Program-made: the position numbers and the translations under genes | Notes under the pieces: generated by a model | Seen by the model: only the letters and a program-made list of their open reading frames with translations | Database searches by the model: none | What the model was told of the DNA's origin: nothing | Part shown: piece after piece, positions 48,971 through 63,421 of the stretch | Layout of the letters: each line of letters begins with the position of its first letter | How positions within the stretch are numbered: the first letter of the stretch is position 1 | Assembly: GCA_029564595.1 (NCBI GenBank) | Contig: JAKQPS010000019.1 | Span: forward strand, 1 to 64,000 | Reading direction: 5' to 3' | DNA length: 64,000 nt | DNA from: a bacterium | Lineage (GTDB): Bacteria; UBP15; UBA6099

Positions 48971-49396
48971 TTCAACGCCTTCCTACTTTGAGCCGCAGAA
49001 TCCGCCATGCTTATCCCACAGCCATGTTGAAGATATTATCATTAATCGAGATAGAAAATCATAGACGCGGCACAGAATATTGTTGATTAAACCGGTTCAT
49101 GCCAAGATGTGTAAATGCGCCAATTATGCTATTCATTCAGTCTTGCCTATTCAAATTCGCGATAGTGAAACTCATCCTTTGCGCCGCGTGTAAAAACGGA
49201 AGGAGTGGGAATCGAACCCACCTCGACCATGCATCCATGACCGACAACGGTTTTGAAGACCGCGGGCGCCACCAGACACCATTCGCTTCCAATCGCTTCT
49301 TCGTATTTCATAACGTCTTTCGCAAAGGCTGTCAACGCGGCGCGGATATCGGTTCTGCCGCCGGACTCATAGGCAGAGATATCAATTCGATTGGTT
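48971..49396. other. Intergenic region carrying tRNA-Sec
   Basis: About 425 bases between two minus-strand genes. The tRNA-Sec lies at 49197..49290. I see no protein gene in the rest; a short minus-strand ORF in this region is the tRNA read through. Confidence 0.6.
49197..49290 (-). tRNA. selC: tRNA-Sec (UCA), selC, with unusual acceptor stem
   Basis: 94 bases on the minus strand, ending in discriminator G. It has the bacterial tRNA-Sec plan: a six-base D stem GGTGTC/GGCGCC with a four-base TGGT loop, anticodon loop CTTCAAA (UCA), and a long variable arm (CGGTCATG/CATGGTCG, eight pairs including two G-U, GATG loop). The T arm is GTGGG-TTCGATT-CCCAC. The acceptor 5' strand is GGAAGCGA, but the 3' strand is only TCCTTCC, so it pairs as seven base pairs with C6 bulged, not as the usual eight. 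CCA is not encoded. It reads UGA with SelB and a SECIS; selA and selD are 12 kb away. Confidence 0.92.
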
Positions 49397-60990: not shown

Positions 60991-62367
60991 TTATACCGCG
61001 TCGATTTCATTCTTGATGATTTCGGCGATTGTGTCGTCCTGATTCGGCAAAACCGTTCTTAAGTCAAAACAAACCGCGCCTTCGACTATGCGCGCGACAA
61101 CAGGCGGCGACCCCGCGCGCAATCCGGCGGCAAACCGGTCCGGAGACGCTTTGGGAGACACTGAGACAAGAAATGTGGGCAGAGTTTCGCCGGGAGTCGA
61201 ACCGCCCCCGATCGTGCTTCGCCCCTCGACGATTCTAATCCTGTCGGGCGGCAACCCTGTCTTTCGGACCACTTCCTCGGCTCTCTTCAGAATATCTTCA
61301 GGACGCATCGCCACCATCTTGATAATAGGAATTTTTTCGGACGCTTCGCCTTTCAGATATATGACAAGCGTGTGTTGAAGCGCAGCAAGACAAAGCTTGT
61401 CCGGTCTCAAAGCGCGGAACAGAGGATGCTTTTTCAAAGGAGAAACATATTCGCGCTTGCCCACTATAATGCCGGCTTGTGGCCCGCCCAGAAGCTTATC
61501 CCCGCTGAAACACGCCAGATCCGCTCCGGCTTTCATCGCTTCCATAGCGGTCGGCTCATGCTGAATGCCGAGTTCCTCCATGTTTATCATCGCGCCGCTT
61601 CCGGTGTCGTAAACAAAAAGAATTCCCTTTTCGCGCGCAAGCGCCGCGAGAGCTTTGTCATCCGGGGCCTTCACAAATCCTTCCATTCTGAAATTGCTGT
61701 GATGTGCTTTGAGAATCATCCGGGTTGCCGGGTTGATCGCTTGTCGATAATCTTCCAGATTCGTATGGTTCGTCGCGCCGACTTCGCGCAGCTTCGCTCC
61801 GCTCTGTTCAAGAATATCGGGAATCCTGAATCCCCCGCCTATCTGTATCAACTCGCCTCGCGAGACGACGACTTCGCCTCCCTTGGCGTACTGCGCGAGT
61901 ATCAGAAATATCGCCCCGGCGTTATTGTTCACCACCGCGGCGTCCTCGGCTCCCGTTAACGCCGCCAGCAGTTCCTCCTGAATATCTCCCCTGAAACCTC
62001 TTTTCCCGGTTAACAGGTTAAGTTCGAGATTGCAATAACCCGAACCCATCTCGGACAACTTATCAATCACTTCGAGACTCAGAGGAGCGCGTCCCATGTT
62101 CGTGTGAATAATCACGCCGGTTGCGTTTATGGCGCTTCTCATGAACAGAGACATTTTTGAGCGGAGCGCCGCTCCGGCCTCTGCCTCGATGGTTTCGAAC
62201 GCCGGACAATCCCCTCCTGCGGCGACATCCTTTCTGATTCGATCCAGAAGCCCGCGCAGCGTTTCCGCCGCCACAACCGGCGAAACACAATCAGCGGCGG
62301 CTATCACCGCTGGAGATGAAAGCAGCGTGTCCACTCCGGGAATTTTTCTCATTTCCTCATTTTTCAT
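60991..62367 (-). CDS. selA: L-seryl-tRNA(Sec) selenium transferase
   Basis: A 458-residue SelA, the PLP enzyme that turns Ser-tRNA-Sec into Sec-tRNA-Sec using selenophosphate. Motifs are NATGVIIHTNMGRAPLS near residue 82, CNLELNLLTGKRG near residue 112, VNNNAGAIFLIL near residue 147, and the PLP-Lys block CFSGDKLLGGPQAGIIVGK near residue 290. Start and the stop of selD are one base apart (TGATATG), so the two are co-translated. The tRNA-Sec is 12 kb away. Confidence 0.95.
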   Translation of the reverse strand: MKNEEMRKIPGVDTLLSSPAVIAAADCVSPVVAAETLRGLLDRIRKDVAAGGDCPAFETIEAEAGAALRSKMSLFMRSAINATGVIIHTNMGRAPLSLEVIDKLSEMGSGYCNLELNLLTGKRGFRGDIQEELLAALTGAEDAAVVNNNAGAIFLILAQYAKGGEVVVSRGELIQIGGGFRIPDILEQSGAKLREVGATNHTNLEDYRQAINPATRMILKAHHSNFRMEGFVKAPDDKALAALAREKGILFVYDTGSGAMINMEELGIQHEPTAMEAMKAGADLACFSGDKLLGGPQAGIIVGKREYVSPLKKHPLFRALRPDKLCLAALQHTLVIYLKGEASEKIPIIKMVAMRPEDILKRAEEVVRKTGLPPDRIRIVEGRSTIGGGSTPGETLPTFLVSVSPKASPDRFAAGLRAGSPPVVARIVEGAVCFDLRTVLPNQDDTIAEIIKNEIDAV

Positions 62368-62368
62368 A

Positions 62369-63421
62369 TCAGCCCGATTTTCCCACTTTTATTGCGGCCT
62401 CGCCGCTCTCTATTAGAGAGCCGATCACGGCCGTTCGCAAATCATATCCCGCCATTTCGGCTTCAAAAACCCCCAACGAGTCAGGCGGCAGAGCTATCAG
62501 CAACCCGCCCGATGTCTGAGGATCGCACAACGCAATCCTCATGTTCTCGTCCACGCCGTCATCATATACGGCGTACTTTTTTGAGCTTTCAAAGTTGGTC
62601 AGCTTCGTGGTGATTCCCTGAGAAATAAACTCTATCACCGCCGGGTCAATCAGCGGAACGGAAAAAGCGTTAATTCGCGCTCCGACGCCTGACGCCGAGC
62701 ACATCTCGTGAAGATGTCCCAAAAGGCCAAATCCGGTGACATCGGTGCAAGCGAAAGCCCCTGCCGCCGCCATCGCCTTCGACGCCTGTTTGTTTAAAGT
62801 CGCCATAGTTCTTATTGTTTCTCTTAAAAGCTCCTCGCCGATCAATTCCGCTTTGGCGGCTGTCGTGAGCGCTCCGGTTCCAATCGGCTTAGTTAAAACT
62901 AAAAGATTCCCGGCCTTGCCTCCGTTGTTGCCGATGAATTTCGCGGGATCCGCCAGCCCGGTGACGCTTAATCCGAAGAAAGGTTCCGGAGCGTCTATCG
63001 TGTGGCCTCCGATGATAGGACAGTCCGCTTCCCTCGCCTTGTCAACCGCGCCGAGCAGTATCTTTTCCACAGTCAGGTTGTCCAGCTTCTTGCGGGGGAA
63101 TCCGAGCACGTTCATGGCCACCACCGGTCTTGCGCCCATTGCGTAAACGTCGCTCAGAGAATTCGCCGCCGCCACCGCCCCGTAATAATAAGGGTCATCC
63201 ACCACCGGCGGAAAAAAATCGACAGTCTGAACCAGCGCCGTCGAATCGTCGATGCGGTAAACGCCGGCGTCGTCGGCCGTCAGGTATCCCTGAAGGATGT
63301 TAGGGTCGTCCAAGTGCGGCAAGCGGCGCAGAACCTGCGCCAGATCGTCTCGATCCACCTTGGCGGCTCAACCCGCGCATCCGGCAAGCGTCGTCATTCT
63401 GACTGTGTCTCTGCCGTTCAT
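62369..63421 (-). CDS. selD: Selenide, water dikinase (selenophosphate synthetase), selenocysteine-containing
   Basis: A 350-residue SelD, which makes selenophosphate from selenide and ATP. The N-terminus reads MTTLAGCAGUAAKVDRDDL, where U is the TGA at 63368..63370 (codon 18). Conserved SelD pieces follow: TVDFFPPVVDDPYYYG near residue 57, ANSLSDVYAMGARPV near residue 78, GGHTIDAPEPFFGL near residue 125 and DVTGFGLLGHLHEM near residue 218. A SECIS hairpin lies 27 bases after the TGA. An automatic ORF would begin after the TGA and lose the first 21 residues. I start at the ATG with AAAGGGAG just upstream. selA follows directly. Confidence 0.93.
63325..63341 (-). promoter_or_regulatory. Bacterial SECIS element in selD
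   Basis: On the mRNA, GGCGCA and UGCGCC make six perfect pairs with loop GGUUC, starting 27 bases after the UGA and with the loop at +33. Loop G at first position, stem length and distance all fit the bacterial SECIS rules known from SelB-dependent UGA decoding. Confidence 0.85.

Follow-up and report, generated by a model that had tools for sequence, protein, structure and literature searches.

The 64,000-nt stretch of DNA analysed here (the window) carries a gene for a selenocysteine tRNA (tRNA-Sec) whose acceptor consists of a 7-nt 3′ strand and a 5′ strand from which C6 is bulged out. Judging from the gene and its genome, we consider it highly probable that this is the functional selenocysteine tRNA of the organism, in a bulged 7/5 form that has already been described in other bacteria. 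What our analysis adds is modest, the bulged form itself being known, and concerns SelA, in which one residue differs between genomes with a bulged tRNA-Sec and all others compared.

The gene is recognized by ARAGORN as tRNA-SeC(tca) at 49196-49291 and by Rfam RF01852 over its full length (49197-49290; 66.7 bits, gathering score 47). Beyond a score over the cut-off, it has the UCA anticodon, the 6-bp D stem, the long variable arm and the G73 expected of an RF01852 member, and ARAGORN, RF01852 and free folding agree on the complete tRNA-Sec that the preliminary description had read from these elements (Table 1). That description had also proposed a covariance-model check of the region, and the RF01852 alignment fits the acceptor to a longer stem whose 3′ strand is short of one base; with a 3′ strand of 7 nt, the 8-bp acceptor stem of the canonical bacterial 8/5 tRNA-Sec is not found. 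The anticodon arm stretch reads C GCGGU CUUCAAA ACCGU on the minus strand, where C27 and G46 form a sixth anticodon-stem pair that leaves one base unpaired, a bulge of the 43a type. CCA is not encoded, and a short T-run (UUUUUAC) directly follows G73. A search for a sigma-70-like promoter for selC found none. On the antisense strand of the gene, 49197-49255 (plus strand) gave a sub-threshold Rfam match to the Plastid-psbl-rps4 3′UTR, which we rejected as a look-alike of the tRNA arms.

Table 1. Position of tRNA-Sec, its structural parts and the neighbouring sel genes in the window.
Feature	Coordinates	Strand	Remarks
tRNA-Sec (selC)	49197..49290	minus	94 nt including G73 at 49197
5′ acceptor strand GGAAGCGA	49283..49290	minus	8 nt; bulged C6 is base 49285
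3′ acceptor strand UCCUUCC	49198..49204	minus	7 nt
Linker AU		minus	between 5′ acceptor strand and D arm
D arm GGUGUC-UGGU-GGCGCC	49265..49280	minus	6 bp
Anticodon arm	49245..49264	minus	UCA at 49254-49256
Long variable arm	49223..49244	minus	9-bp hairpin
T arm GUGGG-UUCGAUU-CCCAC	49205..49221	minus	5 bp
selA	60991..62367	minus	TIGR00474, 515 bits
selD	62369..63421	minus	adjoins selA; itself a selenoprotein gene (LAGCAGUAAK, UGA at 63368-63370)

The claim that eight 5′ bases face only seven 3′ bases, with C6 bulged, is confirmed by both free folding and covariation. Unconstrained RNA folding gives five pairs, an unpaired C6, two further pairs and the 5-bp T stem (−37.4 kcal/mol). In a covariation set of six distinct bulged sequences (G000, G004, G015, G302, G169 and G163), all cells of the bulged register are paired, and changes on both sides occur at three acceptor pairs (alignment columns 4-92, 7-90 and 8-89); the two pairs below the bulge are altered on both sides yet still paired in the more distant genomes. 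The C27-G46 pair over unpaired column 45 is common to all six. An alternative without a bulge would be a 7-bp acceptor stem in which C6 and C67 are mismatched, together with a three-base linker. The strand lengths would be the same, and the geometry goes beyond what the sequence can tell; however, in this register C6 lies opposite C and G7 opposite U, position 6 is unpaired in five of the six bulged sequences and free folding picks the bulge, whereas the bulged register pairs in all six with covariation. We therefore regard the mismatch as improbable and retain the bulge.

The 7+5 helix with a bulge was correctly called, but the implication that it is an anomaly does not stand, as bulged 7/5 tRNA-Sec has already been reported in bacteria (PMC4607533; PMC5330540). 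A 7/5 tRNA-Sec was described in Epsilonproteobacteria by Cravedi et al. 2015 (PMC4607533) and, as summarised in PMC5330540, contains a bulged nucleotide. Santesmasses et al. 2017 (PMC5330540) recorded a 12-bp helix in 47 genomes of Gammaproteobacteria, Clostridiales, Spirochaetes and others; most of these are bulged (classes 3a, 4a and 5a), and the 43a bulge is usual, not universal. The window tRNA-Sec has the 7 nt between T stem and G73, the 5′ bulge at C6 (5a) and the 43a base of that form: it is class 5a with 43a, a known kind in another lineage. It shares with the published bulge-5a tRNA-Sec (PMC5330540, S2 Fig column C) the seven nucleotides from T stem to G73, the bulge after pair 5, the extra unpaired 43a base, the long variable arm and UCA. 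It differs in the lineage of its host, an order with few genomes in our sample, and in that its selC stands alone, about 12 kb from selDA, outside a selABC operon. The epsilonproteobacterial form (PMC4607533), likened here by its description, has the same 7-bp acceptor and 5-bp T stem in a different lineage. The Cloacimonetes type (Mukai et al. 2016, as cited in PMC5330540) has the same 12-bp acceptor-T helix but, as outlined in the latter source, no bulge and a shorter linker. Canonical 8/5 tRNA-Sec (E. coli selC) resembles the window tRNA-Sec in D arm, anticodon, variable arm and G73, and differs in its 13-bp helix and 8-nt 3′ strand.

The abundance of the bulged form was estimated from 144 tRNA-Sec loci drawn from across bacteria, in most cases one or two from each family. 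The 3′ strand is 8 nt long in 130 loci and 7 nt long in 11; G73 is misplaced or absent in the remaining three. A bulge is present in seven of the 11 short loci, three of which belong to the family of the window genome, and absent from four, two of them readable as longer stems. Bulged forms thus recur in genomes unrelated to the window genome. When a covariance model was built on the bulged set, bulged genomes of the sample scored 92-104 bits and all others at most 83; the gap is not absolute, as the tRNA-Sec of Photobacterium, outside the training set, scored 79 bits. Four acceptors, at L016 (G012), L225 (G299), L296 (G390) and L301 (G392), have poorly partnered bases 6-7 (UU or UC) after five normal pairs and represent a further odd form that fits neither the 8/5 nor the bulged 7/5 type cleanly.

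Sister genomes with a normal 8-bp stem, which the preliminary description had named as contrary evidence, were sought and not found. The tRNA-Sec of G001, from the same genus, is identical to that of the window, and G004, from the same family, matches it in the acceptor but has diverged in the variable arm. Loss of one 3′-strand base from an ordinary 8/5 tRNA-Sec through a sequencing or assembly error could draw on the fact that both these sister assemblies are fragmented, but an acceptor shared by two separate genomes makes a read error very unlikely. Unrelated genomes are bulged too, with compensatory changes, and an error is refuted in practice by G004, G015, G302, G163, G169 and Photobacterium, which leaves it an almost negligible probability. 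Two other genomes of the genus (G002 and G003) contain selB, and G003 has kept formate dehydrogenase (Fdh) genes with an in-frame TGA; selA, selC and selD were not detected in either. As a stretch of about 14 kb holds all three genes in the window genome, their absence is likely due to an assembly gap, probably a single one.

Several observations make it very likely that the tRNA-Sec is in use in the organism: selA, selB and selD are intact, UGA is present in SelD and Fdh genes, and only one tRNA-Sec scores above the Rfam cut-off in the whole genome. The presence of selA, selB and selD is expected for hosts of the bulged 7/5 form (PMC5330540); selA and selD lie in the window, and selB is intact on another contig (C92). 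The Fdh genes have a single in-frame TGA; for one of these genes and for its sister, the TGA was confirmed to lie at the Sec site NNVDHCARLUHA. The start codon of selD is uncertain (63421 or 63397). About 26 nt after its UGA begins a hairpin, GGCGCAG-GUU-CUGCGCC, which is a possible SECIS. The selC gene does not lie beside selA and selB, an arrangement that is usual, with exceptions (PMC5330540). Such a stand-alone position, an Rfam score below the typical range and the lack of an encoded CCA might be taken to indicate a decayed or unused pseudogene. However, the acceptor, D, anticodon and T stems are without mismatch, the sel genes are intact, UGA is kept at Sec sites and the genome has no second tRNA-Sec over the cut-off, so that decay is very improbable. 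Sister genomes, covariation and intact machinery together led us to reject both sequencing error and pseudogene.

The preliminary description had also suggested comparing the acceptor with SelA and SelB of the same genome, and in SelA a residue separates bulged from other genomes. Gln175 of the window SelA corresponds to position 168 of AaSelA. Among 28 SelAs, the seven from bulged genomes all have Gln at this position and the other 21 all have Glu (AaSelA Glu168), including those of four genomes with the unbulged 7-nt form; such unbulged forms in our sample (e.g. G046 and G036) accompany a Glu-type SelA. The same seven SelAs all have Gly at position 179 (AaSelA Ser172); we rejected this residue as a bulge-specific marker because Gly is present in some 8/5 genomes too. 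Gly127, diagnostic in the seven genomes, was likewise dropped, Photobacterium having Lys. We then turned to independent named records, 18 plasmid-borne SelAs examined after the pattern had emerged in the seven genomes. Photobacterium sp. DA100 has the only Gln among them, the 17 others having Glu, and the only bulged tRNA-Sec of the set (GGAAGUGG/UCCUUCC); for 11 of the 17 Glu SelAs, tRNA-Sec lay in the fetched stretch and was always of the 8-nt type. Four further genomes have SelA Glu168. In total, Gln168 occurs in 8/8 bulged cases with a readable SelA, a sample of eight SelAs from at least four organism lineages, and Glu in 42/42 others, for part of which tRNA-Sec was read. No SelA was found near the tRNA-Sec of G390 and G392. 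No residue of SelB separates bulged from other genomes, and an apparent domain difference in SelB of bulged genomes (a gap in the model match) was dismissed, since these SelBs proved ordinary in length and coverage when compared over their full length. A literature search, made without most subscription papers, returned none on a link between a SelA residue and the bulged tRNA.

In AaSelA, Arg174 makes a dimer-dimer contact in the ring, and ring interfaces form the tRNA pocket (PMC4607533). The Glu168/Ser172 segment sits just before this arginine, and we infer that it may sense the acceptor. These sequence data hint that SelA and bulged tRNA-Sec are matched. Of the effects that the preliminary description had proposed on discrimination by SelA, SelB and EF-Tu, the residue change lends indirect support to one on SelA only. 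It is tempting to suggest two tRNA-matched types of SelA, one with Glu168 for ordinary and unbulged tRNAs and one with Gln168 and Gly172 for the bulged 12-bp form, in which this segment would tune SelA to the acceptor, enzyme and tRNA moving between phyla as a set; we find this proposal as easy to believe as to doubt.

Phylogenies bear on whether descent or adaptation underlies the association. In an RpoB tree, bulged hosts fall in three separate places and a single clade is rejected (AU p 0.00014), although full-length SelA unites the bulged set in one clade (98/95; 99/94 with Photobacterium). Support for a single clade of bulged SelAs disappears once the 32 columns surrounding the residue are left out; two changes are then needed, though the result also accommodates a single origin. 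Given this loss of support, common ancestry may account for the association instead of adaptation. Tests of organism-like groupings in SelA were borderline (p 0.05), and for SelB a tree holding bulged rows together was not rejected (p 0.57), a result made uninformative by long branches. Bulged selC and Gln-type selA could have travelled together, by inheritance or by transfer, without being functionally matched. The single SelA clade across dispersed hosts and the selC-selA-selB clusters of at least three bulged genomes (G015, G302 and G163) make this a serious contender, to which we give slightly less than even credence: the loss of clade support without the segment is also what parallel local change predicts, and none of the 42 other SelAs departs from Glu168. 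The literature already discusses transfer of sel clusters within the Proteobacteria (PMC8124441). Two readings are at issue: joint transfer of selA and selC across phyla, or parallel change of the segment in those SelAs that encounter a bulged tRNA; under each, SelA would be tied to the form of the tRNA. As a separate observation, the SelBs of five genomes with an unbulged 7-nt acceptor (G022, G308, G388, G036 and G046) form one clade in a quick tree (SH-aLRT 97), unlike their SelAs.

In the pathway that we envisage, SerRS would charge the bulged tRNA-Sec with serine and the 6-bp D arm would present it to SelA, where serine would be converted to Sec using the selenophosphate that SelD supplies; SelB would then carry Sec-tRNA to UGA codons, among them those of Fdh and SelD. 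C6, being unpaired, probably either stacks within the helix or is flipped outward, such that the 12-bp helix would approach the length of the usual 13-bp one. The private change of SelA (Glu168 to Gln and Ser172 to Gly in AaSelA numbering) may match this tRNA. Earlier work (Baron and Boeck 1991 and Itoh 2013, as cited in PMC4607533) linked the length of the acceptor to SelB binding and to the positioning of the amino acid within SelA. Natural 12-bp forms exist and the 8/5 length rule is therefore not absolute; the window tRNA-Sec confirms and extends this known exception. If true, the link with SelA would offer a single-residue handle on how the enzyme reads the acceptor arm, as well as a simple marker for predicting the type of tRNA-Sec from the SelA sequence.
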